DNA from: Herbaspirillum sp. ST 5-3
GTDB taxonomy: Bacteria > Pseudomonadota > Gammaproteobacteria > Burkholderiales > Burkholderiaceae_D
Assembly (NCBI RefSeq): GCF_004804275.1
Contig: NZ_STGI01000002.1
Span: 248,001-312,000, forward strand
Reading direction: 5' to 3'
DNA: 64,000 bases
Both the position numbers and the translations under genes were made by a program. Below, in pieces: positions 29,629-42,747 of this stretch. Positions within the stretch are counted from its first letter, which is position 1. Every line of letters begins with the position of its first letter. The notes below the pieces were generated by a model that did no database searches, was not told the origin of the DNA, and saw only the letters and a list, made by a program, of their open reading frames with translations.

Positions 29629-31578
29629 TCAGGAAAGCATCGAGAGCAGTTTGTCGCTGATGCGCCGATATTCGGCTTCGATGGCCTTCATGCGTCTTTC
29701 AAAATCGATCCTTGCACCGCTCTTCATGAGCATCTCCAGATCCCTGCACAATGCCGACAGGCCGGAAGCGCCGATCGATGCGCTGCTGCCGCCGAGCGCG
29801 TGCGCTGTCTTCGCCAATAGTACATGGTCGCCGCGTGCATGGGCCTGGCGCAGCATCGCCAGGCGCGGCGGCGCGTCGTGCTGGTATAGCGCGGCAAGCT
29901 CGCGGAAATCGGCGCCGAACGCATCGCGCACATACTCGAGTTCATCGGTGCAGGGCGCAAGCATCGGCTCCACCCCCGTCCCTGCATGAACCGGCAGCCA
30001 GCGTCCCAGCGTTTCCTGCAAAAGCTGCGGTCGAATCGGTTTGGAAATAAAGTCGTCCATATCGGACGCCAGGCATTTGTCGCGCTCGTCCTGGGTCGTG
30101 CACGCGGTCAGCGCCACAATTGGCGTGCGACGGCCGTTGCCCTGCAATAAGCGAATCGTCTGCGTGGCTTCAAAGCCGTCCATCACGGGCATGTCGCAAT
30201 CCATCAAGATCAGGTCGTAGCCGCCTTCGCGATGCATGTCGACCGCCCGCTGTCCGTTGTCCGCAAGGTCGGCCTTGCAGCCGAGGTTTTCAAGCATGCG
30301 CAGCGCGACTTGCTGATTCACCGGATTGTCCTCGGCGATCAGGATGCGGCGGCCGGCAAGGGGGAGTCGCGCACCGTTGCCTTCAGGCGTTGTAGTCGTG
30401 CCGCTGGCGCGGACGCTGACGAACGGTAGCTTGCCCTCCCTGATTGCCTCGCACAAGCGCAGCAGTGCGGCCGCATCGCGCAGCAACTCCGGTTTGACGA
30501 ACAAGGCTGAAAATCCGGACTGCGTCACGCTGGCCTGATCCGGCTGCGCCTGCTCGTCCAGGAGTACCAGCGTGACATGCTGGTATGCCGCATCGGCCTT
30601 GATCGCCGCGCCCAGCAGTTCGCCGTCCATGCCTTCTATCCAGCGGTCGAGCATGACGAGCTGAAAAGGGTCTTGCGTTGCCTTTGCCTCGGCCAGGGTG
30701 TTCAATGCCTCCACGGCGGAACCGCTGGTCTGCACGCGCATACCCTGTGCGGCCAACATCGCGGCGAATGCCTCGCGCTGCGGAGATGCTTCCGATACGA
30801 GCAGCGCTCGCATGTCGGCTGCGGGATTTGGCGCAAGCGGCAATGAAAGGGAGAGGCGCAGGGTCGTGCCCTGTTGCGGGAGGCTGTTGATGCCTATCCG
30901 TCCGCCCATCAGCTTGGCCAGTTGCACGCACAGTGCCAGTTCAAGGGCGGCGGTGCTGCGCGGCGGGGGCGCCGGTTCCGTTTCCTGGTTCAAGATCGCG
31001 ACAAGACGTTCGCCGACGTCGAATAGTCCTGGGGCGTGGATATGGATGCGCAAATCGCACGCGTTGTTCCCGCACTCGGCCTGCGTGGTAACGGTGATAT
31101 CGGCCTGCTCCGAGAGGCGGATTGCACCATCGACCAGCATCGAGACCAGTTGCCGCAGCCGCGCAGGATCGCCTTCCACCAGCACCGACGGCGGCTCGTC
31201 GAGATGCAACTGGACACCTTTGGTGCGTGCGGCTGCGATCTTGTGCAAGCATGCTCCGTGGATTTCCGGGCGCAGGTCGAATCGCGTCCGCGCCAGCGCG
31301 AAACGCTTCGCTTCCAGGAGCGACATGTCGACGACGCGTTCTATCAGGTCGAGCAGCGTATCGAGCTTGCTTTGAACGATCGTCGCATATTCCCGCTGGG
31401 AGTCGGACAGATTCGTGTCGCGCAGCATGGTCAACATGCCGGCGATGCTGTTCATCGAGTTGCGGAGGTTGTGATTGATGTCGGCAAACTGGCGGCTCAA
31501 TGCCGACGTGCCGGAGTCGTCCAGGATTTCTACCGCCTGATCTGCAGGCTCTGTCATCTTCGTGTTTATATCGGGCAT
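29629..31578 (-). CDS. Hybrid sensor protein HisKA-like/ATPase/REC/REC/HPt with degenerate kinase core
   Basis: The 649-residue protein has no transmembrane or PAS segment. The order is a HisKA-like domain (His36 in DINHNLRNSM), an ATPase-like domain (about 130-250), a receiver with Asp311, a second receiver (410-525, acidic Glu416/Asp417, Asp460, Lys513) and an HPt domain with His593 (KTAHALGGSS). The kinase core looks impaired: the acidic residue after the His is Asn, the N-box Asn is missing (LVDGAI) and no DxGxG box is seen. It may act mainly as a relay. It is the first gene of the signalling operon, divergent from the coiled-coil gene. ATG 31557 is an alternative start. Confidence 0.85.
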   Translation of the reverse strand: MPDINTKMTEPADQAVEILDDSGTSALSRQFADINHNLRNSMNSIAGMLTMLRDTNLSDSQREYATIVQSKLDTLLDLIERVVDMSLLEAKRFALARTRFDLRPEIHGACLHKIAAARTKGVQLHLDEPPSVLVEGDPARLRQLVSMLVDGAIRLSEQADITVTTQAECGNNACDLRIHIHAPGLFDVGERLVAILNQETEPAPPPRSTAALELALCVQLAKLMGGRIGINSLPQQGTTLRLSLSLPLAPNPAADMRALLVSEASPQREAFAAMLAAQGMRVQTSGSAVEALNTLAEAKATQDPFQLVMLDRWIEGMDGELLGAAIKADAAYQHVTLVLLDEQAQPDQASVTQSGFSALFVKPELLRDAAALLRLCEAIREGKLPFVSVRASGTTTTPEGNGARLPLAGRRILIAEDNPVNQQVALRMLENLGCKADLADNGQRAVDMHREGGYDLILMDCDMPVMDGFEATQTIRLLQGNGRRTPIVALTACTTQDERDKCLASDMDDFISKPIRPQLLQETLGRWLPVHAGTGVEPMLAPCTDELEYVRDAFGADFRELAALYQHDAPPRLAMLRQAHARGDHVLLAKTAHALGGSSASIGASGLSALCRDLEMLMKSGARIDFERRMKAIEAEYRRISDKLLSMLS

Positions 31579-31959: not shown

Positions 31960-34900
31960 ATGGAAACGAATCAGGCGATGCGAAACAACCTCAATGTGCA
32001 GGACAAGCCCTTCGACGACGAAGACGTCGATCGAAGCGCTGGGGTGCAGCCGGCCGCGACCAATCCGCGCACCGGCGGGGTCGATCTGAAAGCGATCCGC
32101 GAGGCCATCGCCCGCGTCGAAGCCGAAGCGAAAGCAACCGTCGCCGCCGAAAATCGCGCCCACGCCGAAGCGCGCGCGCGGGCACTCGCCGAAGACAAGG
32201 CCAAGATGGAAGCGGCCGCCGCCGCCGAGGCCTATCAAAACGCCCGGGCAGCCGAAGAAGCGATCGAAGCAGGCCGCGCGCGACTGGATGCGGAACGCCA
32301 GGCCCGCGAAGCCAGCGAGGCCCGCGCCGCCGCCGTCAAGAAGGAGATCGAAGCACTGCGCGCACGTGCCCAGGCCGAAGCCGAGGCCAAGCGCATGGCG
32401 GAAGAACGCGTCCGCGCCGAGCAGGAAGCCCGCAAGCGCGCAACCGAACAGATCGTGAAGGAAACCGAGCTGGCCGCGCGCGCCACTGCCGCCGCCGAGG
32501 AGCTGGCCCAGGAAACCGAACTGGCGCGCTGGCAAGCCGCCCAGCGCGTTGCCGCCGCCGAAGCCGCGAAACAGGAGGCGGAAGCCCGTGCCCGTGCCGA
32601 TGCGCGCATGGTCGAGCTGGCCCGCGAACAGGAACGTCGCGAGCGCGAAGCACGCATGGCCTCCGAGATGCTCGCCAAGGCGCGTGCCGAGGCGATGGAA
32701 GTGGCACGCGAACGCGAGCGTGCCGAAGAGATGGCACTGCACGCGGCCTTGAGCCGCGCTCCGGTCGAAGTCCGTGCACGCGAGGAAGCCCGCGCACGCG
32801 CGCTGGCCGAGCAGGAAAGCGAAGCCTCCGCGCAAGCCCGGGCCGACCTCGAACGCAAGGCCGCCGATGCCTACCAGTTGCGCCTGCAGGCCGACGCCGA
32901 GCTGCGCGACGCCGCCGTCCGCCGCGAACATGCCGAGTCACTGGCCGCCGCGGCCGCCCAGGCGCGCCGCGAAGCGGAAGAGCGTATTCGCATTGCGACC
33001 GAAGCGCGCATCCGCACCGAGCGCGAACTGCAAACCCTGGCGCTGACCCGCGTCGAAGCCGAGCACAAGGCCGACATGCAGGCCCGCGCACGCGCCGCCG
33101 CGGAAGCGCGCGCCGTGTGCGAGGCGCGCGAGCGTGCCGAAGCCGAACAACAAGTCGCCGAAGCGATGCAAAGCCGCGCGGAAGAAGAGCAGCGCGCCAG
33201 GCAGCTCGTCGAGAAGCGTATCGAATTTGAACGCGCCGCCGCCAAGATGGCCGCCGACCAGGCCGCTGCGGAACAGCAGGCCTATGAGCGTGCCGCCGAA
33301 CATGCGGAACTGCAACGCCAGACCGCCGAATTCGCCGCCGCCAAGGCGCGTGAAGCGGTGGAACTGGCGCGCGCCGAGCGCGAGCGCGCGGAGGCCGAAC
33401 AGAAAGCCGTCGTGGCCTTGCAGGAAAAGCTGCGTGCCGAAGAAGCCGCCATGGCGCAAGCCGTGGCGCGTGCCGACGCTGAGCGCCAGCACACCGGTTT
33501 GTTGCGCATGCAGGAACAGGCGGAGCAGACAGCCCGCGCAGCCAAGGAAGAAGAATGCGAAGCTGCCAAGACCGCGCTCGCCAAGGCGATGGAGCGCGCC
33601 GATGCGCAACGCGAGGCTGCCAATGCCGCTGTCCTGAAAGCGCATGAGGCGGTCGAACTTGCACGCCTGGAACGCCAGCGCGCAAAAGATGAACAGCAGG
33701 CCCTCGAGACCTTGCAGCAGAAAGTGCAGGTCGAGCGGCAGCGTGCGGAGGCAGCGCAGAAGGTACTGAAAGCCACCCAGGAAAAGCTCGCCGCGGAACA
33801 GGCCGCGCTGGCCGAGGCCGAAGCGCGTGCCAAGGCCGAACTCGAACTGGCCGAATCCCTGCGCGCAAAGGAGGAATCCGACCGCGCCTTGCGTGCCGCG
33901 CATGAAGCCGAATCCACCGCCGCACGGCATACCGCCGAGCAAACCAATGCCGCTGTCGAACTGCAGCGCAAGGCCGCCCAGCTTGCCCTGCTGAAGGCAC
34001 GCGAAGCCACCGAAGCCGCGCGTGCCGAACGCGAGCGTGCCGAGGCCGAACAGAAAGCGCTGCAAGCCGAGCAAGCCCGGCGCCAGGCCGACGAAGCGGC
34101 GCGCGTCGAAGCGGAAGCGCGCATGCACGCCGAGCAGGAGCAGGCCGAATTGCTGCGCGCAAGGGAGCGCGAAGAACTGGAAGCGCGCTCGGCAATTGAA
34201 GCCCGGCTGGCTGCGGAAAAGGAGCATTTGGAGCAGGCCGCCCGCAAGGCCGAACTGGAACGCGAAGCCGCCGAGGCGGCCGAAGCCAGCGCGCGCGAAG
34301 CCGTCGAACTGGCCCGCACGCAGGAAGAGCGCGCCGCCGCCGAGAAGCAGGCGCTGGAATCCATGCAGAAGAAGCGCGCCGCAGAGGAAGCGGTACGCAA
34401 CTATGCTGCCGCCCGCGCCCGCGCCGAGACGGAACACGCGGAAACGATGCGCGCCCGCGAACAGGCTGAGCAGGCCGCGCGTGACGCCATCCAGGCCCGG
34501 TTGGCGGCGGAAAAGCAGCAGCTGGAACAGGCAGCGCAACAAGTCGCCCTGGAGCGCAAGGCCGCCGAAGCGGCGGAAGCGAAAGCGCGCGAAGCCGGCG
34601 AGCTGGCTCGTATCGAACAGGAGCGCGCCGCCGCCGAACAGCGCGCGCTGGACGCCCTCCGCGACAAGCTCGCTGCCGAACAGGCTGCAAAAGCCGATGC
34701 CGAAGCACGCGCACTCGCCGAGCATGAGCAGGCCGAAACGATCCGCGCAACCGCGCAGGCCGAGCGCAAGGCGCGTGAATCGGTTGAAACCCAGCTTGCC
34801 GCCGAAAAGCAGCGCATGCAGAAGGCGGCAGAGCGTGCCGAACTGGAACGCCAGGCCGCCTACGTCGCGCTGAGAAAGGTACGCGAAGCGATCGATCTGG

Positions 34901-36246
34901 CCAAGGCGGAGAAGGACCGTGTCGCCGCCGAGCGCGAGGCACTCGAAGCCATCCAGGCAAAGCTTGCCGCCGAAACGCAACTGCGCAATGAAGCGCAGGC
35001 ACGCGCCAAGGCGGAAACGGAGCAGGCCAAAGCGATGAAGGCGCGCGAGCAGGCTGAGCGCGCAGCGCGTGAAGCGAGCGAAAGCGCTTGCGTCGCAGAG
35101 CAGGAGCTGCTGGCGAAGGCCGCCGAGAAGGCCGAATCACAGCGCAAGACTGCCGAACTGGCAATCGCGAAGGCGCGCGAAGCGATCGACCTCGCCACCG
35201 AAGAACGCCGCCGTGCCGCCGCCGAGCAGAAATCGCTGGAAGCGGTGCAGGAAAAACTGCGTATCGAGCGCGAGCGCGCCGACACTGAACAGAAGACGCT
35301 GGCCGCGATCGAAGAAAAATTGTCGGCGGAAAAGAATGCTGCAGACGATGCGCAAGCACGGCTTCGCATCGAGCAAGAGCAGGTGCAGATCACCCGCGCG
35401 CGCGAGCAGGCCGAACGCACAGTGCGGCTTGCGAACGAAAGCCGGCTTGCGGTCGAAAAGCAATTCCTGGAAAAGGCGCGCGAGCAAGTCGAGTCGCAGC
35501 GCCTCGCCGCGGAAACTGCCGAAGCCAAGGCGCGCGAAGCCATCGAACTGGCACGTGTCGAGAGCGCCCGTGCCAAGGCCGAACAGCAGGCGCTGGCAGC
35601 GATTCAGGAAAAGCTGAAAGCAGAAGACATCGCACGTATCGAAGCCGAGCAGCGCGCCAGGGCGGAACGCGAAGCGGCCGACCTGGCCAGCAAGCGCATG
35701 GAAGCGGAAATCGAGGCGCATGCCGCCGAAGAAGCACGGGTGGCCGCCGAGCGTCGCGCATTGCAGGCTGCGCGCAGGCAGAAGGAATATGCGGCAACGA
35801 GCACGGAGCAGGCTGAGACGCTGCGTGCCAGAATCGAACGCGAACAGGACGAGGCGCAGGCGATCGCCGCCGACCTGATCGAACGCATGGCGCAGAAGAG
35901 CGAAGCGCTCGGCGACTGGCGCGTCCGCGCCGAGAGCGTGCTGGCCGAATCGCCGGTGCCGGCAGTCAAGGCCCGCGCGGTCCGACGGCCGCTGGTCGCC
36001 GTACTGGGCGGCGCCGCCTTCGCCGCAGGTGTGGCGGTTGCCAGCACCTGGACCCTGCAGACTACCCCGGCAAGTACGGGATTCGCGCACAAGGCGGTCC
36101 CGGCCGTCGCAGCCTCCGTCAGCCAGTCCGGCCCGATCGGCCTTGCCAACCCCTCAAAATTGCAAATGTCCTATCAACTCAGCGCACAGCCGGAAACAGC
36201 CCCAGCCGTCGAGAGCACAGCGCAGGCCGACGCAGTGAAGGAATAG
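31960..36246 (+). CDS. Giant tail-anchored coiled-coil protein with 98-residue repeats
   Basis: The 1428-residue protein has a short acidic N-terminal region (to about residue 40), then about 1290 residues of uninterrupted Ala/Glu/Arg/Lys/Gln-rich helix with almost no Pro or Gly. From residue 462 it is built from seven tandem units anchored by [KS]xREAxELAR-like motifs. Near the C-terminus, after a basic stretch (VKARAVRRP), one membrane helix (about 1344-1365, VAVLGGAAFAAGVAVASTW) is followed by a roughly 60-residue tail, so the coiled coil should be cytoplasmic and the tail periplasmic. ATG 31960 has GGGAG 7 bases upstream; ATG 31927 is an alternative. No family is recognised; a structural tether or scaffold is inferred. 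Confidence 0.85.
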   Translation: METNQAMRNNLNVQDKPFDDEDVDRSAGVQPAATNPRTGGVDLKAIREAIARVEAEAKATVAAENRAHAEARARALAEDKAKMEAAAAAEAYQNARAAEEAIEAGRARLDAERQAREASEARAAAVKKEIEALRARAQAEAEAKRMAEERVRAEQEARKRATEQIVKETELAARATAAAEELAQETELARWQAAQRVAAAEAAKQEAEARARADARMVELAREQERREREARMASEMLAKARAEAMEVARERERAEEMALHAALSRAPVEVRAREEARARALAEQESEASAQARADLERKAADAYQLRLQADAELRDAAVRREHAESLAAAAAQARREAEERIRIATEARIRTERELQTLALTRVEAEHKADMQARARAAAEARAVCEARERAEAEQQVAEAMQSRAEEEQRARQLVEKRIEFERAAAKMAADQAAAEQQAYERAAEHAELQRQTAEFAAAKAREAVELARAERERAEAEQKAVVALQEKLRAEEAAMAQAVARADAERQHTGLLRMQEQAEQTARAAKEEECEAAKTALAKAMERADAQREAANAAVLKAHEAVELARLERQRAKDEQQALETLQQKVQVERQRAEAAQKVLKATQEKLAAEQAALAEAEARAKAELELAESLRAKEESDRALRAAHEAESTAARHTAEQTNAAVELQRKAAQLALLKAREATEAARAERERAEAEQKALQAEQARRQADEAARVEAEARMHAEQEQAELLRAREREELEARSAIEARLAAEKEHLEQAARKAELEREAAEAAEASAREAVELARTQEERAAAEKQALESMQKKRAAEEAVRNYAAARARAETEHAETMRAREQAEQAARDAIQARLAAEKQQLEQAAQQVALERKAAEAAEAKAREAGELARIEQERAAAEQRALDALRDKLAAEQAAKADAEARALAEHEQAETIRATAQAERKARESVETQLAAEKQRMQKAAERAELERQAAYVALRKVREAIDLAKAEKDRVAAEREALEAIQAKLAAETQLRNEAQARAKAETEQAKAMKAREQAERAAREASESACVAEQELLAKAAEKAESQRKTAELAIAKAREAIDLATEERRRAAAEQKSLEAVQEKLRIERERADTEQKTLAAIEEKLSAEKNAADDAQARLRIEQEQVQITRAREQAERTVRLANESRLAVEKQFLEKAREQVESQRLAAETAEAKAREAIELARVESARAKAEQQALAAIQEKLKAEDIARIEAEQRARAEREAADLASKRMEAEIEAHAAEEARVAAERRALQAARRQKEYAATSTEQAETLRARIEREQDEAQAIAADLIERMAQKSEALGDWRVRAESVLAESPVPAVKARAVRRPLVAVLGGAAFAAGVAVASTWTLQTTPASTGFAHKAVPAVAASVSQSGPIGLANPSKLQMSYQLSAQPETAPAVESTAQADAVKE
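33343..35526 (+). repeat. Seven tandem 98-residue (294-bp) coding repeats, two extended to 119 residues
   Basis: Anchor motifs like KAREAVELAR begin at protein residues 462, 560, 679, 777, 875, 973, 1071 and 1190. Successive spacings are 98, 119, 98, 98, 98, 98 and 119 residues. 98 is 14 heptads and 119 is 17 heptads, so the coiled-coil register is kept in every unit, and the two long units carry three extra heptads. Units also share blocks such as RLAAEKxxLExAA and MRAREQAEQAAR. DNA identity between units is diverged, pointing to old duplication under selection. Confidence 0.9.
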
Positions 36247-36465
36247 GCGAGGGCAGCCAGCGTTGTTTTTTCCTCTGCCGGTACTTGCACGATTGGTATG
36301 CCGCCGCTTCCGAAATAGCGTATTTAAGGCAGGAAGTATAGAATGCACTGGTTTAAAAATCGGCGCGGGCGGCTTGTCAACAGCGCTGCATTCCGGCTAC
36401 CGTACGATTTCCATGCGCTTTCCGTGCGCTTTCTGTTTGCTGCAAAATAACACCAACCAAGACTC

Positions 36466-37584
36466 ATGACTTTCTTCTCGCGCCGCATGATCAGTATTCG
36501 TTTGCGCCCTGTACTGAATAACACCATTGCATTGTCCGGTCTGGTGGCAGCCTTGTTTGCCGGTCCCGCGTTTGCGGACGATTACACCGACGTCAACAAG
36601 CTCATGCGCGGCGGTCAATATGCGGAAGCACTGACGAAAGCGGATGCCTTCCTGAACAAGAATCCGCGCGATGCGCAGATGCGCTTCCTCAAGGGCGTGA
36701 TTCTCACCGAACAGAACAAGTCGGCCGAAGCCATCACGGTCTTCACCAAGCTGACCGAGGACTATCCGGGATTGCCTGAACCGTACAACAATCTCGCCGT
36801 GCTGTACGCGGCCGCCGGTCAGTACGAGAAGGCGCGCCTCGCACTTGATGCTGCCATCCGCACCAACCCGAGCTACGCGACCGCCTATGAAAACCTGGGC
36901 GATGTGCATGCCAAGCTCGCAAGCCAGGCCTATGACAAGGCCTTGCAGCTCGATTCCGGCAATTCCGCTGCGAAGTCCAAGCTGACGCTGGTACGTTCGC
37001 TGGTGGGCAACATGAACGGCGGCTCCAAGGTGGCCGCCACTGCACCTGCGCCGGCTCCGGTAACTGCGGCGCCTGCACCGGCACCCAAGGCTCCGACCCC
37101 GGCAGTGCCGGCACCGGCCGCGCCGCCGGTCGCTGCTGCACCCGTCCCGGTCAAACCGGCACCGATTGCAAAAAATGAAGCCCCCAAGCCCGAACACAAA
37201 GTGGAGCCCAAGGCCGAGCCGAAACCAATGGCGAATGCCAATGTCGAACGGGACGACGTGTTGAAGGTCGTGCATGGCTGGGCCAAGGCCTGGAGCTCGC
37301 AAGACGTGAAGTCGTATCTGGGCTATTACGGCAGCGATTTCCATACGCCGAACGGCCAGTCCCGCAAGGCATGGGAAGACGACCGGCGCGCACGCATCGT
37401 CGGCAAGAGCAACATCAGCGTCAAGGTCGAATCCCCGCAAGTCAGCATCAATGGCAATACGGCAACGGTGAAATTCCGCCAGGTCTATGTGTCGGACCGT
37501 CTGACCGCAAACACCCGCAAGACCCTCGTGCTGGCCAACAAGGGCGGCAAGTGGCAGATCAAACAGGAGAATACGGGTAGCTGA
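36466..37584 (+). CDS. Exported TPR protein with C-terminal NTF2/Cds6-like domain
   Basis: The 372-residue protein has a signal peptide (cleaved near FADD, residue 40), about three tetratricopeptide repeats (42-170, e.g. EPYNNLAVLYAAAGQYEKARLALDAAI), a long Pro/Ala/Lys linker (185-255) and a C-terminal domain (260-372) resembling the NTF2-like domain found in L,D-transpeptidases. It is periplasmic. The stop overlaps the start of the L,D-transpeptidase gene (TGATG), so the two are translated together and probably function together at the cell wall. An alternative start is ATG 36487. Confidence 0.85.
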   Translation: MTFFSRRMISIRLRPVLNNTIALSGLVAALFAGPAFADDYTDVNKLMRGGQYAEALTKADAFLNKNPRDAQMRFLKGVILTEQNKSAEAITVFTKLTEDYPGLPEPYNNLAVLYAAAGQYEKARLALDAAIRTNPSYATAYENLGDVHAKLASQAYDKALQLDSGNSAAKSKLTLVRSLVGNMNGGSKVAATAPAPAPVTAAPAPAPKAPTPAVPAPAAPPVAAAPVPVKPAPIAKNEAPKPEHKVEPKAEPKPMANANVERDDVLKVVHGWAKAWSSQDVKSYLGYYGSDFHTPNGQSRKAWEDDRRARIVGKSNISVKVESPQVSINGNTATVKFRQVYVSDRLTANTRKTLVLANKGGKWQIKQENTGS

Positions 37585-38858
37585 TGTTGCGTTTCCAATC
37601 TACCAGGCGCCAGGCAACGGCCGGCACCGCCAGACAAGTCCTGTCCTGGTTGCTGGCTGCCAGCCTCATGACGGCGCCTTTCGCCGCGAACGCGAAGGCG
37701 CACGCCAAAAAGCCGGCGCCCGCGCCCGCGCGGGCAGTTGCCGCGCCCGTGGCGGACAAGCCCGATCCTGAAGTATTGCTGGTCGAAGTGTATAAAGAGC
37801 TGGGGGCCAACCGTTTGCGGCAGGCACTGGCCAAGGCCGACAAACTGGTCGAGGACTATCCGAATTTTCGTCTCGGCCATCTGATTCGCGGCGACCTCCT
37901 CCTGATGCAGACGCAGCCGGTCACCACCTTCGGCGCGGTGAATGGTCCGGAGGACAAGCTCAAGAACTTGCGCCAGGAAGCGATCGTGCGCCTGAAGTGG
38001 CTGCGCGAACGTCCGGATCCGAGCTTGCTGCCGCGCCTCGTGCTGCAATTGCGCGAGGACCAGAAGCATGTGATCCTGGTCGATGCCAAGCGCTCGCGCT
38101 TGTACGTGTATGCCAATGACGCCGGGCGCCTGAAATTCGTCAGCGACTATTACGTCAGCCAGGGCAAGCTCGGCGTCAACAAGCTCAAGGCCGGCGACCA
38201 GAAAACGCCTATCGGCATCTACTACATCACCAGCCATCTCTCGGGCGAGCGTCTGCCCGACTTTTACGGCTCCGGCGCATTGCCGATCAATTATCCGAAC
38301 GAATGGGACAAGGTCAACGGCCGCAGCGGATCGGGTATCTGGCTGCACGGCACGCCTCCCGACAGTTACAGCCGTCCGCCGCTGTCCTCCGACGGTTGCG
38401 TCGTGCTGACCAACCCGGACCTGCACAAGCTCGCCGGCTCGGTCGAGATCGGCAAGACGCCGGTGGTGATCAGCGAAAGCGTGGACTTCGTCAGCAAGAC
38501 CAAGTGGGAAAGCGATCGCCACCTTGCGACGCACCTGGTGGACGACTGGCGGCGCGACATGGAGAGCATGAATCCGCAGCGCGTGATGGAAAATTATTCC
38601 CGCCAGTTCCGTTCTGATCGCGGCGAGGACCTGAGTACCTGGTTTGCAAAGCATCAGCAATTCATGAGCGGCGTGAAGGATGTCTCGATCGAGCTGAAAG
38701 ACTCGACTTTCTTCTTCTATCCTGGCCGCGACAACATGATTGTCAGCACCTTCACCCAGGAGTCGAGAGTAGGGAAGGGCAAGACATCGATTCGCAAGCG
38801 CCAGTACTGGGCGAAGGAAGGTTCGCAGTGGAAAATCGTGTACGAGCTGAACCTCTGA
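37584..38858 (+). CDS. L,D-transpeptidase (YkuD domain) with C-terminal NTF2-like domain
   Basis: The 424-residue exported protein has a signal peptide (to about residue 38, ANAKA), a Pro/Ala-rich linker, a helical region with a short TPR-like stretch (65-145), a YkuD catalytic domain (about 155-300) with the HGTP...SSDGCVV active-site motif, and a C-terminal domain (310-424) of the same kind as the preceding protein. It should cross-link or modify peptidoglycan, or attach proteins to it, through a catalytic cysteine. It is translationally coupled to the TPR gene and followed by a terminator. Confidence 0.92.
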   Translation: MLRFQSTRRQATAGTARQVLSWLLAASLMTAPFAANAKAHAKKPAPAPARAVAAPVADKPDPEVLLVEVYKELGANRLRQALAKADKLVEDYPNFRLGHLIRGDLLLMQTQPVTTFGAVNGPEDKLKNLRQEAIVRLKWLRERPDPSLLPRLVLQLREDQKHVILVDAKRSRLYVYANDAGRLKFVSDYYVSQGKLGVNKLKAGDQKTPIGIYYITSHLSGERLPDFYGSGALPINYPNEWDKVNGRSGSGIWLHGTPPDSYSRPPLSSDGCVVLTNPDLHKLAGSVEIGKTPVVISESVDFVSKTKWESDRHLATHLVDDWRRDMESMNPQRVMENYSRQFRSDRGEDLSTWFAKHQQFMSGVKDVSIELKDSTFFFYPGRDNMIVSTFTQESRVGKGKTSIRKRQYWAKEGSQWKIVYELNL

Positions 38859-38936: not shown

Positions 38937-39119
38937 GCGGTCCGCTTTTCGTTCTCGCGGGAATCTCTGCCGATGATGTTGCGATGATATTGATCAAGCT
39001 AGGTGCTCCTTTTCGCTCGGAAGCACCGAAAGGACCGGGCGGCATATTTTCCTGTTGAACTAAGTTTTGCCAAGAATGGTCATTCAAAGGCATGTGCATC
39101 GGATAACACGCAGGTCGCC

Positions 39120-40391
39120 ATGCGATGCCAGAATTGCGGGGCGGAAAATACTGGGTTTGCACGGATTTGCGCCTCTTGCAGCAAGCCAATGCCCTTTCCG
39201 GGTGGCTACCAGAAGTTCAGTCAAACCGGCCATGCCCAGTTCGAAGGCAAGGGCATCGGCGGCGCGTCGTCTTTGCTTGAATACGGAGTACGGCTGCGCG
39301 CTCATCGATTCAGGAGGACATGCCATTTGACCGCTGCCAAGCAACGTACCCCACCTGCAGAGCCGAAACGCGAGGATCTGCACCGTAATAGCGCCGCGGC
39401 AACCGCTCCCCGCGGCGAGCGATCACGCACTCCACAGGAGTCCTCCGCGGATTCGACTACCCGGCAACGAACCGAACCGCACTGGAACGACACTGCAGCC
39501 GCGCGCGCTGCCGCCTTCGCGCATCAGGAGCCGCCCTGGCAGACCGCCTTTCAGGAGGGGAGGCCCAAACCTCGCCGCATCTCGCGTCTCATGCTGATGT
39601 CGGGGATTTTCGTCATTGGTGCGGCCGTCGGCCTGGGCGTCGCCGTCTGGTTCAGTAAAACCGGCGCACGTCAGACTCCTGTCCATGCGTCCCAGCCGCT
39701 GCCTGCGGTTCAGGCGCCATCGCAAGCGGGAGTGCAGGGCGCGCGTGCTCCGGTTCGCGGCATCAGTCCGGATGAACTTCCCTACGACGGTGCACCACCG
39801 CCGCAGCAAGCCGAGCAAGCGCCCGCAGCCCCGCCAGTCCCGACGCTGAAGTCTGGTGAGCACGACGATGTCGTCAACTCTGGCAGGGGAGCGACGACCT
39901 CCAGGAGCAAGCAAGGCGATTCCGATGCGCTCAGCGCAGCACCTCCGAAGCGCGCCAGGAAACCGGAGATTTCCGAGGCGGGCCAGGCTGCATTGGAAAG
40001 CACTGCACCCAAGCCGCGCGCAAAGCCGGTCGAGAGGAAGACAGCCAAGGCGCCGTCGAAGCGTCATGTACCGCAGCAGGCCGCCGCGAAGGACAAGGAG
40101 ATCGAGCGTATCCGGCAGCAGGCGGAAGAAGAGTTAAAAAAAAAGACTAGCGCCGGGCGAGTCGTAGGAGAAGCGCGCCTGTCCAAACGCAAGCGCACCG
40201 GCCAGGCTTATGGCGGGCCGACGATGTCCGCCTCGTCGCAATCTCGCTACGCCGTCACGCGCGCCACGCTCGCGCGCTGCGAACGCATTCAGGGCCTCAT
40301 CGATCGCGAGAAGTGCAAGTGGCGCCTCTGCGCCGGCAAGTGGGGCAAGAACGGTTGCCCATCCTACGAGCCGCACATTCCCGCTTATTGA
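39120..40391 (+). CDS. Zinc-ribbon, single-pass membrane protein of unknown function
   Basis: The 423-residue protein opens with a zinc ribbon (MRCQNCGAE...ICASCSKP, two CxxC pairs), followed by a low-complexity basic/acidic region, a single membrane helix (about 155-180, LMLMSGIFVIGAAVGLGVAVWF), a long Pro/Ala/Lys region that ends in charged helix (KDKEIERIRQQAEEELKKK), and a conserved-looking C-terminal domain with ARCERIQGLIDREKCKWRLCAGKWGKNGC. The topology suggests a cytoplasmic zinc ribbon and a periplasmic cysteine-rich end. ATG 39120 has CAGG upstream; the frame is open to 39003. No function is known. Confidence 0.8.
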   Translation: MRCQNCGAENTGFARICASCSKPMPFPGGYQKFSQTGHAQFEGKGIGGASSLLEYGVRLRAHRFRRTCHLTAAKQRTPPAEPKREDLHRNSAAATAPRGERSRTPQESSADSTTRQRTEPHWNDTAAARAAAFAHQEPPWQTAFQEGRPKPRRISRLMLMSGIFVIGAAVGLGVAVWFSKTGARQTPVHASQPLPAVQAPSQAGVQGARAPVRGISPDELPYDGAPPPQQAEQAPAAPPVPTLKSGEHDDVVNSGRGATTSRSKQGDSDALSAAPPKRARKPEISEAGQAALESTAPKPRAKPVERKTAKAPSKRHVPQQAAAKDKEIERIRQQAEEELKKKTSAGRVVGEARLSKRKRTGQAYGGPTMSASSQSRYAVTRATLARCERIQGLIDREKCKWRLCAGKWGKNGCPSYEPHIPAY

Positions 40392-40691: not shown

Positions 40692-40946
40692 ATGAAGACT
40701 GCAATCCGCAAGATGGGCAATTCGCAAGGGGTGTTGATTCCCAAGCCATTCTTGATGCAGACCGGTCTTGATATCGGCGAGGTCGAGATTGAGGTGGAGA
40801 ACGAAGCAATCGTGATCCGCAAGCCGAGGAAGAAATCCCGCGAAGGATGGGCGGAGGCATGTCGTTTGCTTGCGGACAAGTCGACAGAACTTCCAATCGC
40901 CTGGCCTCTGATTATCAACGAAGCGGATAGTGGATTCACATGGTAA
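40692..40946 (+). CDS. mazE: AbrB/MazE-type antitoxin
   Basis: The 84-residue protein has the swapped-hairpin AbrB/MazE DNA-binding fold: MKTAIRKMGNSQGVLIPKPFLMQTGL followed by EVEIEVENEAIVIRKP (residues 1-42). The C-terminal half (45-84) is the toxin-binding tail. GAGGAAC precedes ATG 40692. It overlaps the toxin gene by 7 bases, the standard layout. It should repress its own promoter and block the toxin. Confidence 0.9.
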   Translation: MKTAIRKMGNSQGVLIPKPFLMQTGLDIGEVEIEVENEAIVIRKPRKKSREGWAEACRLLADKSTELPIAWPLIINEADSGFTW

Positions 40947-41260
40947 AGCGGGCCGACGTATGGCTGGCCGATTTTGAAAAACCGATCGGCAGCATGACTC
41001 AGAAGCGATGGCCTTGCGTCGTCGTCTCGCCTGAGGAAATGGACGAGTACCTGTCCACGCTCATCATGGCGCCGATGTGCACGCACGAACTGCCCGCACC
41101 GTTTCGTATTCCCGTCACGTTCATGCAGAAAGAGGGACTGATCCTGCTGGATCAGATCTGCACCCTCGAGAAGTCGCGCTTGGTAAAGAAGCTGGGGGTC
41201 ATCAGCGAAGAAACGATGGCCAAGACTCTGGAAGTACTACAAGAAGTTTTCGCTTATTAA
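40940..41260 (+). CDS. mazF: MazF/PemK family endoribonuclease toxin
   Basis: The 106-residue protein shows the MazF fold motifs: KRADVWLADFEKP at the N-terminus, QKRWPCVVVSP carrying the conserved Arg23, APMCTHE with the catalytic-region Thr, and LDQICTLEKSRLVKKLG. It should cleave mRNA when free of antitoxin. All family motifs look intact. The stop is only 18 bases before flhD, so toxin and flhD are probably co-transcribed. Confidence 0.92.
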   Translation: MVKRADVWLADFEKPIGSMTQKRWPCVVVSPEEMDEYLSTLIMAPMCTHELPAPFRIPVTFMQKEGLILLDQICTLEKSRLVKKLGVISEETMAKTLEVLQEVFAY

Positions 41261-41278: not shown

Positions 41279-41593
41279 ATGGCTAACGATTATTTGTCAG
41301 AAATTCGCGATGTCAATCTGAGCTACCTGATGATTGCCCAGCAAATGATTCGCCACGATCGCGCAGAGGCCATATTCCGCCTCGGCATCAGCGGCGAGAT
41401 TGCCGATCTGCTGGCCAGCATGAGTAACGGTCAAGTCCTGAAAATGGCCAGCTGCAACGTGATGCTCTCGCGTTTCCGCTTCAACGACACGGCGATCCTG
41501 TCGACGCTGCTGCGCGACAAGGCCGGCACCGCCAGTGCGCCGGTGCATGCATCGATCATCATGGCGTCGCAGGCGCCCGAAACCATCCTCTGA
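41279..41593 (+). CDS. flhD: Flagellar transcriptional regulator FlhD (orphan)
   Basis: The 104-residue protein matches FlhD along its length: SEIRDVNLSYLMIAQQMIR, RAEAIFRLGISGEIADLLA, and MASCNVMLSRFRFNDTAILSTLL, including the conserved cysteine (Cys60). FlhD normally forms a hexamer with FlhC to switch on flagellar genes. AAGGA lies upstream of ATG 41279. No flhC follows; the next gene is an unrelated membrane-anchored protein. It may be a second FlhD copy or pair with an FlhC encoded elsewhere. Confidence 0.9.
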   Translation: MANDYLSEIRDVNLSYLMIAQQMIRHDRAEAIFRLGISGEIADLLASMSNGQVLKMASCNVMLSRFRFNDTAILSTLLRDKAGTASAPVHASIIMASQAPETIL

Positions 41594-41700: not shown

Positions 41701-42747
41701 ATGCAAGCGCTCGACGTGCTCAATGTGCTCGACAGTCCCCTGCGGTGGGAGACCGAACGGCAAAATCGCATTCATCAGGAAGCCCTCGAGCAAAAGAAGA
41801 AACAGCCGCGCACCGTCGATGCGCGCAAAGATCTGCGCCTGATCGCCAATCCCGCGCAAGACAAGAACACCAGCGCGGCCGTCACCCTCCCGCAGGAATG
41901 GGTCGACAAGGTCCGCAACATTCCCGATATGCGCTCCGCGCTGATTCCGCTCGACGAGCAGACTGAAGGCAGCGAGTGGAGCAAGCCGTTTTCCCTTTGC
42001 AAGGCGGACATGGAGCCGTGGCTATCCTTTTACCAGGGTTACCGCGAGTCGCGCCTGTTCCTTGAGAATGCTTCCGCCGACCAGCAGGATGCCTCGCAGC
42101 TCGATTTTCCGGTGCGCGCGCTGCTGGAATTGAAGCAAGCCGGCGCGAACATCATCCTGCAGCCGCCAGTTCAGATCAACGGATTGGTCGAATACCACGA
42201 TCTCGAGGGCGAATTGAACGCGTGTCGCGATCAGGTACTCGCCAAGGCACTCTTCAAGGTGGCCAACGAAGTCCATCAAAACCATCTCAGGAAAGCGGTC
42301 GAACGCGGCCGCGCAATGGGCAACCTGCTGCATGATGCCCTGATGGGCGACGGCCACGCGAATCTGATCCGGGCCTGGGAAAAGGTCTACAAGCGCAAGC
42401 CGACGATCGACGAGCTGCACCAGATGCTGACCACCGGACGCGTCAGACTCTCGGAAAAGCGGCAATCGGCGCCGGAACCCAAGGCCATCCGGAGTCAGGA
42501 GAGGATGGCTCCAAGCCGCAGGGAAGCAGCGCCTGATCCCGAGGATGATGCGATCGTCGTCAACGTGGCGCGCACGCGGCCAAATCCAACCGCGTTGCCG
42601 CCGGAAGAACGCGAGAAGACCGCCGCTCCGGCCCAATCCCAGTCTCAGTCCCAGCCCACGCCCGGAAAAACGCGCGCAATCCTCGTCCATGTCTTGCAGG
42701 CGACGGTTTGCTGCGCAGCACTTGCCGCACTGGTCTTCCTGACCTGA
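41701..42747 (+). CDS. Tail-anchored protein of unknown function
   Basis: The 348-residue protein is hydrophilic with a helical body (to about residue 250), a linker rich in Pro, Gln and charged residues (255-322, with a QSQSQSQP run) and a C-terminal membrane helix ending at the last residue (AILVHVLQATVCCAALAALVFL). There is no signal peptide, so the body should be cytoplasmic. AGGAG lies upstream of ATG 41701. It is 107 bases after flhD and before cheW, hinting at motility or signalling, but no domain is recognised. Confidence 0.78.
   Translation: MQALDVLNVLDSPLRWETERQNRIHQEALEQKKKQPRTVDARKDLRLIANPAQDKNTSAAVTLPQEWVDKVRNIPDMRSALIPLDEQTEGSEWSKPFSLCKADMEPWLSFYQGYRESRLFLENASADQQDASQLDFPVRALLELKQAGANIILQPPVQINGLVEYHDLEGELNACRDQVLAKALFKVANEVHQNHLRKAVERGRAMGNLLHDALMGDGHANLIRAWEKVYKRKPTIDELHQMLTTGRVRLSEKRQSAPEPKAIRSQERMAPSRREAAPDPEDDAIVVNVARTRPNPTALPPEEREKTAAPAQSQSQSQPTPGKTRAILVHVLQATVCCAALAALVFLT

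Follow-up and report, generated by a model that had tools for sequence, protein, structure and literature searches.

A predicted tail-anchored giant helical rod protein of Oxalobacteraceae encoded beside a relative of the cell-bending enzyme Bd1075

Introduction

Bd1075, Pgp2 and Csd6 are three LD-carboxypeptidases that are compared in PMC8938487. Bd1075 is described there as lying on one lateral face of the Bdellovibrio cell, which it bends, and according to its authors the mechanism of this one-sided targeting is unknown. The sections of that paper available to us describe no tail-anchored rod partner for any of the three enzymes. Here, we analyze a 64,000-nucleotide stretch of Herbaspirillum sp. 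ST 5-3 (contig NZ_STGI01000002.1, positions 248,001 to 312,000; hereafter the window), in which the gene of a giant, predicted tail-anchored helical protein (the rod) stands directly upstream of a gene pair that encodes a TPR-NTF2 protein and a relative of these enzymes.

The nearest parallel in terms of working is the bactofilin BacA with LmdC, in which, as the accessible portions of PMC10945521 describe it, a cytoplasmic polymer positions a wall peptidase at the inner curve of the cell via a bitopic protein. There, the polymer is a bactofilin and the enzyme itself spans the membrane, whereas in our case the membrane-spanning component would be the rod, with the enzyme in the periplasm. In build, the nearest proteins are the growth pole ring proteins GPR of Agrobacterium and RgsE of Sinorhizobium, likened to the rod and set apart from it by descriptions (in the available parts of PMC7327166) and not by sequences. 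Like them, the rod is very large (1428 residues, with relatives reaching an open frame of 1997 residues), helical, and equipped with a predicted membrane anchor. GPR and RgsE come from Rhizobiales and relatives and have reported apolipoprotein A1/A4/E domains, whereas the rod and its distant relatives match none of these in Pfam. Crescentin of Caulobacter is likewise described as a helical rod in the cytoplasm with a role in cell shape. Unlike the rod, it is not tied to a Csd6-type enzyme, and the family libraries gave no sequence match between the two. To our knowledge, Crescentin has no transmembrane anchor.

Results and Discussion

The rod gene was read directly as an open frame with its ATG at 31960 and a second in-frame ATG 11 codons further upstream. 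An earlier note, made from the letters of the window alone, had described a 1428-residue protein rich in Ala and Glu, and both the frame and the composition are confirmed (Ala 28.9%, Glu 17.5% and Arg 12.3% of the whole protein). From the N- to the C-terminus, the protein consists of a short variable N-terminus, a head, a helix of about 1285 residues, a single hydrophobic helix, and a 61-residue tail. The rod and the adjacent pair comprise the following features.

31960–36246, plus strand: the giant rod, a helical protein of 1428 residues rich in Ala, Glu and Arg, with a predicted membrane anchor at its C-terminus (open reading frame list, sequence, AlphaFold2)
32077–32445, plus strand: conserved head, residues 40–162, GVDLKAIREAIARVEAEAKATVAAENR..., with a mean column identity of 80% across an alignment of 12 relatives
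32761–32763, plus strand: Pro268, the sole proline within the rod and a possible hinge (sequence and relatives)
33343–35820, plus strand: repeat zone, residues 462–1287, eight 98-residue units (two enlarged to 119), each 7 × 14 (repeat anchors, self-identity)
33718–33780, plus strand: first 21-residue extra, residues 587–607 (unit alignment)
35263–35325, plus strand: second 21-residue extra, residues 1102–1122 (unit alignment)
35914–35943, plus strand: conserved membrane-proximal motif DWRVRAESVL, residues 1319–1328 (sequence, relatives)
35992–36060, plus strand: single transmembrane helix, about residues 1345–1367, with basic residues N-terminal to it (sequence; hydropathy and charge in relatives)
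36061–36243, plus strand: predicted periplasmic tail with the conserved motif LQMSYQL at 36160–36180 (motif in relatives)
36466–37584, plus strand: TPR protein with a C-terminal NTF2-like (Cds6_C) domain and, by eye, a signal-peptide-like start (Pfam)
37584–38858, plus strand: enzyme with YkuD and NTF2-like (Cds6_C) domains, related to Bd1075, Pgp2 and Csd6, with a signal-peptide-like start by eye (Pfam, PDB)

The rod protein has one strong hydrophobic segment, near its C-terminus, and its N-terminus is hydrophilic. The membrane helix that the earlier note had placed there is supported, with a positive-inside charge pattern across the family: in the 38 anchored rods that meet a stricter criterion, the 14 residues preceding the helix carry a mean net charge of +2.9, compared with −0.2 on its other side. 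This asymmetry predicts a cytoplasmic rod and a periplasmic tail. An AlphaFold2 model of residues 440–1428 (989 residues) is nearly all helix along the rod, at low to middling confidence, with a mean predicted local distance difference test score (pLDDT) of 65.6 and three gaps within the rod, and it does not call the membrane segment a helix. A reach of roughly 190 nm had been estimated for the rod; this is the length that about 1285 residues would span as a single straight helix, at 0.1485 nm each. The rod contains one proline, at residue 268. Several open frames lie opposite the rod gene, and the one of 1007 residues at 32336–35359 (minus strand) is probably a by-product of the high GC content and the repeats.

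Within residues 462–1287, the rod is built from a regular repeat. The KAREAVELAR-like repeat anchors start at residues 462, 560, 679, 777, 875, 973, 1071 and 1190, and a recount of their spacings gives the same values as before (98, 119, 98, 98, 98, 98 and 119). Repeat detection also bears out the 98-residue period: self-identity at lag 98 is 0.343 versus a composition expectation of 0.161 (z = 17.0), and shuffles that preserve the composition of each heptad position reach z of at most 6.9 over lags 10–259 (n = 300). Mean self-identity is 0.203 for lags that are multiples of 7 and 0.148–0.162 for the remaining lags. With the 21-residue extras removed from two of them, the eight units are 42–60% identical to one another. 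Folding the units on 14 columns gives 14 residues as the smallest repeat unit (7 × 14 = 98), with the pattern basic, nonpolar, x, Ala, Glu, x, Glu-rich, nonpolar, nonpolar, x, Ala, nonpolar, x, Ala. Each 21-residue extra resembles the 21 residues that precede it and is therefore read as a tandem duplication. The clear repeat is confined to this zone; upstream of residue 462 there is at most a faint trace, with a consensus identity of 0.37–0.42 at the best shift versus a 99th percentile of 0.34 in shuffles that covered fewer offsets than the real comparison.

The heptad-exact character of the repeats, already claimed from the letters, extends to the relatives, where the register is also preserved. 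Among 99 rods, 44 have a C-terminal helix (anchored) and 55 do not (anchorless); this set excludes L127 and frames below 600 residues (e.g., L059, L083 and L111). When the five top lags of each rod are pooled, 220 of 220 are divisible by 7 in the anchored rods and 269 of 275 in the anchorless ones. Lag 98 itself ranks first in 31 of the 44 anchored rods (top five in 40) and in 9 of the 55 anchorless rods (top five in 18). The high-GC, repetitive nature of the gene and its tandem 21- and 98-residue duplications would fit a low-complexity Ala-rich protein that has no specific scaffolding role and whose repeats come from replication slippage. Such an explanation is nevertheless very improbable, as the head, the tail motif and the single proline are conserved across genera and the family is present in 140 of 245 genomes of Oxalobacteraceae.

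The earlier assignment of a coiled coil is plausible. The heptad order is strict and helix is predicted, but the hydrophobic seam is weak and rich in Ala. The best heptad position holds 31% large hydrophobic residues and 39% Ala, the other positions hold 7–17% large hydrophobics, and a clean a/d hydrophobic pair is absent. The strongest 7-residue signal is carried by acidic and basic residues, and in the first part of the rod Ala alternates with charged residues. Parallel charge staggers, in register and near register, score 224.5 versus at most 105 in 60 heptad-class shuffles, a weak control since these shuffles wipe out the repeats; the top-scoring parallel offsets are 7, 1 and 21 residues. 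A myosin-like 98-residue charge stagger was considered and is unsupported as such, the staggers of 91 (113.5) and 99 (105.5) being barely above the shuffle maximum of 105. Judged from the sequence, the protein is probably a long, self-associating helix, and a lone, non-associating helix is possible.

The latter would correspond to a passive spacer, in which a long single Ala/Glu/Arg helix tethers the nucleoid or a head-bound protein away from the membrane and no self-assembly takes place. The weak seam, the 29% Ala, the early alternation of Ala with charge, and the variable length of anchored rods (about 1000 to 2000 residues) are consistent with such a spacer. However, the multiples of 7 among all 220 top lags of the anchored rods are expected under selected helix packing, and the head is conserved beyond what a loose grip needs. 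We therefore regard a passive spacer as unlikely.

The gene pair next to the rod suggests a link to cell wall editing. In the enzyme, Pfam identifies YkuD at residues 162–296 and Cds6_C at residues 319–421. The name Cds6 appears to be a spelling variant of Csd6, which the portions of PMC4398505 available to us describe as an H. pylori shape determinant. The best PDB match of the enzyme is Bd1075 (7o21; E = 2.8e-39, aligned over 145–421), followed by Pgp2 (4.1e-18) and Csd6 (1.7e-17). Like these three, it has YkuD followed by an NTF2-like domain and a catalytic His and Cys; unlike them, it has a longer N-terminal part before YkuD. The catalytic His/Cys motif WLHG...SDGCVV is found in 26 of 26 distinct relatives of the enzyme and aligns with that of Bd1075. 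The enzyme also has Val at the position of Bd1075 Val158, a residue described in the accessible text of PMC8938487. By homology, we classify it as a putative Bd1075-type LD-carboxypeptidase. The NTF2 part of the TPR protein matches 7o21 as well, by sequence (1.9e-6) and by fold (rank 3, from a weak model with a mean pLDDT of 62).

The rod lies directly upstream of the TPR-enzyme pair on the same strand in 13 of the 14 rod-bearing Noviherbaspirillum genomes, G010 being the exception; in G012, only the end of the rod is on the contig. Same-strand adjacency of rod and pair recurs in five further genera (g8, g22, g47, g51 and g54), and in g47 it is found, by coordinates, in 9 of 10 rod-bearing genomes. 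In the window, the enzyme start overlaps the TPR stop by one base. Promoter and terminator scans around the rod gave no signal beyond the shuffled controls from which an operon could be decided, and a terminator-like site at 36414–36428, between the rod and the TPR gene, is at shuffle expectation.

The rod protein has no recognized family, in agreement with the earlier note: searches of Pfam (E 0.001), NCBIfam, PHROGs and the PDB gave no family match, and the PDB sequence search returned one chance-level match (E 0.054). Its distant relatives gave no Pfam family above the cut-off (E 0.01), with one anchorless rod weakly matching Arg_tRNA_synt_N below it. No paper naming these rods was found in the open-licence literature, which makes this a weak negative. 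Two known types of protein were also considered. The domain II of TolA is a long Ala/Glu/Lys-rich helix with alternating Ala; TolA is anchored through its N-terminus, and its helix lies in the periplasm. TolA was rejected because the rod anchor is C-terminal and no Tol family was found in Pfam or NCBIfam. A surface adhesin was rejected too, given the hydrophilic N-terminus (the signal being judged from the sequence), the basic residues that precede the C-terminal helix, and the lack of an adhesin family match. Homology to either type, which the earlier note had named as refuting its reading, was thus not found in Pfam or NCBIfam, and the anchor is on the wrong side. We conclude that the rods form an undescribed family, a new sequence family with a new tail-anchored layout and a newly suggested partner; giant membrane-anchored helical scaffolds as such are already known.

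A homologue search across Burkholderiales, proposed in the earlier note, found the rod conserved in Oxalobacteraceae and rarer beyond. The head is matched in the 140 Oxalobacteraceae genomes given above, in 24 of 44 genera, which include Herminiimonas, Oxalicibacterium, Paucimonas, Massilia and Janthinobacterium (among the best 80 of 93 relatives). The C-terminal 131 residues are matched in 14 of 15 Noviherbaspirillum genomes. In the wider order, 19 of 250 genomes have a head match, 15 of them outside Oxalobacteraceae and some weak. Seven loci outside Oxalobacteraceae were inspected: four have a C-terminal membrane helix and tail, two are truncated before the C-terminus, and one lacks the helix.

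Rods of the family span about 700 to 2000 residues as open frames, and the anchored ones 767–1997, the shortest being truncated at its N-terminus; L038 is N-terminally truncated. The longest rods occur in genus g56 (L120, L121, L133 and L138; open frames of 1740–1997 residues), where the enzyme pair is elsewhere in the genome. Most rod-bearing genera have the tail-anchored form, and the anchorless form is found in the Massilia/Janthinobacterium group. The LQMSYQL-like tail motif is present in 41 of 44 anchored rods and in none of the 55 anchorless ones. Exactly one proline is found inside the rod in 35 of the 44 anchored proteins, within a PxEVRxRE-like motif in 26 of the 44, and 40 of the 55 anchorless rods have none. 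By one pattern, 20 of the 55 anchorless rods end in a stretch resembling the pre-membrane part of the anchored forms.

A tree was built from 81 of the 99 rods, leaving out 18 missed by the head pattern, and in it a single branch separates the anchored from the anchorless forms (100/100). Depending on the root, this points to a probable single loss of the anchor, in the Massilia/Janthinobacterium group. The anchorless rod of g53 (L126), one of the 18 outside the tree, would be a second case of loss. L117 is cut at its C-terminus by the contig, so its missing anchor says nothing. The family offers a natural experiment in the evolution of long helical proteins, with strict heptad-preserving duplication and one clean loss of the anchor.

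The rod gene often adjoins the gene of a relative of a cell-bending enzyme, so the rod may be a scaffold that tells this enzyme where to act. We tentatively propose, with less than even confidence, that it is a tail-anchored cytoplasmic membrane scaffold for peptidoglycan editing that sets cell shape. The head and the charge pattern of the 98-residue (7 × 14) repeat would drive parallel association of rods in the cytoplasm, and the C-terminal helix is predicted to cross the inner membrane. The periplasmic tail, with its LQMSYQL-like motif, may then dock on the TPR-NTF2 protein, the YkuD-NTF2 enzyme, or both; most likely, the tail meets one of the two and thereby biases the site of peptide-stem trimming. 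Trimming by the Bd1075-type LD-carboxypeptidase would be concentrated on part of the cell wall, which would set the shape of the cell. The earlier note had considered a cytoskeletal spacer, a polar scaffold, and a chromosome or envelope tether. The adjacent TPR-NTF2 protein and the Bd1075/Csd6/Pgp2-type enzyme lend support to the idea of an envelope tether, and the link to the chromosome gained no support.

In a more specific version of this proposal, a shape module reaches across the envelope and takes its positional cue from the rod. Parallel rods would line one side or zone of the inner membrane, and their periplasmic tails would gather the TPR-NTF2 protein and the Bd1075-type enzyme. In a two-stranded coiled coil, one turn of the supercoil takes roughly 98 residues. 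A repeat of this length would present the same face at each turn, and the rods could stack in register. We consider this version rather unlikely. If it is true, a single giant protein of species-variable length joins a cytoplasmic filament, a membrane tether and wall editing. The rod family is a concrete candidate for the one-sided positional cue that, in the available text of PMC8938487, remains unsolved for Bd1075-type enzymes, and it is carried by named type strains of environmental bacteria (Noviherbaspirillum and Herminiimonas).

The scaffold proposal draws on the adjacency of rod and pair, the homology of the enzyme to three shape-determining LD-carboxypeptidases, the tail motif and single proline of the anchored rods, and the parallel charge staggers. 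It also draws on co-occurrence: the enzyme is present in 61 of 63 genomes with an anchored rod and in 9 of 75 with an anchorless one (class assigned by genus from representatives, with G083 and G107 unclassified). Several observations weigh against the proposal. The co-occurrence contrast comes near to a single observation because the anchorless group is one clade; anchorless rods also occur together with the enzyme in g53 and in 8 of 17 g64 genomes. Rod and enzyme are non-adjacent in 11 of 17 anchored genera (draft contigs in part), where they lie far apart or on separate contigs. In g56, for example, the distance is 72 to 105 kb in four genomes with both on one contig, and greater in another. 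Anchored rods stand without the pair nearby in four other families. Within Noviherbaspirillum, G010 has an anchored rod and no enzyme at the 1e-60 cut-off, and G011 has the pair without a rod. Conversely, 48 of 120 enzyme-bearing genomes lack a head match, G012 at least because its contig ends.

The pair also occurs independently of the rod. All 13 further loci that were inspected have both genes together, although four come from genomes that lack a head match, and its neighbors are unrelated in the three loci listed among those 13. The TPR-enzyme pair is older and wider than its link to the rod. Since it is found without the rod, it must serve a function by itself, to which the rod adds at most. 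In one genome with the rod elsewhere (L156, 5364–8909), by eye, an accA-like gene precedes the pair and peptidyl-prolyl isomerase-like genes follow it.

Three further points count on the same side. Trp303 of Bd1075, the key residue that closes the NTF2 domain according to the accessible text of PMC8938487, has no evident counterpart in the enzyme of the window, whose last residues are ELNL. The parallel stagger score mostly mirrors the heptad itself, and antiparallel staggers are no better than shuffles. In the open-licence literature, no curved-cell phenotype was found for these species (Noviherbaspirillum and Herminiimonas).

The unlinked rods are also in line with a giant membrane-anchored scaffold of the GPR/RgsE sort at the pole or growth zone. 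Such a protein would organize the pole or the elongation machinery, and its adjacency to the pair would reflect shared regulation or inherited synteny. Depletion in that system is described as giving curved, irregular cells (available parts of PMC7327166), and this explanation fits both the 11 of 17 anchored genera in which rod and enzyme are unlinked and the rods of the Massilia/Janthinobacterium group, which have no anchor. It is less easily reconciled with the recurrent direct adjacency to the wall-trimming pair in six genera. In addition, the rod lacks the Pfam apolipoprotein match reported for RgsE, and the host is on a different branch of the phylum from Rhizobiales. A scaffold of this sort is possible, though doubtful.

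Apart from the pair, two neighbors of the rod recur in most Noviherbaspirillum loci.

29629–31578, minus strand: divergent hybrid histidine kinase (HisKA-HATPase-REC-Hpt), a possible regulator, adjoining the rod in most Noviherbaspirillum loci (Pfam)
39003–40391, plus strand: zinc-ribbon-like protein that follows the pair in most Noviherbaspirillum loci, has a membrane helix as judged by eye, and is matched by neither Pfam nor NCBIfam

Response regulators, in addition to the hybrid kinase, lie upstream of the rod on the opposite strand. In a Herminiimonas locus, the rod follows, on the same strand, a giant protein of kinase-AAA-GAF-histidine kinase (HK) layout and a REC-DUF3369-HK-REC protein.

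Flagellar genes are also found in the vicinity, and the rod could be a motility-linked scaffold that helps to place flagellar or chemosensory gear, with flhD as its ancestral neighbor. In the window, flhD lies 5 kb downstream and is followed by a CheW gene. In three other genera, flhD adjoins the rod divergently (L033, 4740–5072; L036, 4533–4991; L124, 8563–9126), which hints at an old flagellar neighborhood, and L053 has, by eye, MotB-, REC- and CheA-like frames beyond flhD. Most loci, however, place the rod away from flagellar genes. The Herminiimonas, Paucimonas and Undibacterium-like loci have other neighbors, and those of the anchorless group are varied. A role in motility thus seems improbable.

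Two genes flank flhD (41279–41593) in the window. A PemK/MazF-like toxin gene (40940–41260) directly precedes it, and this pairing is kept in several Noviherbaspirillum loci. Between flhD and the CheW gene, 41701–42747 encodes a genus-conserved protein of 348 residues that matches no family in Pfam or NCBIfam and, by eye, has a membrane helix at its C-terminus.
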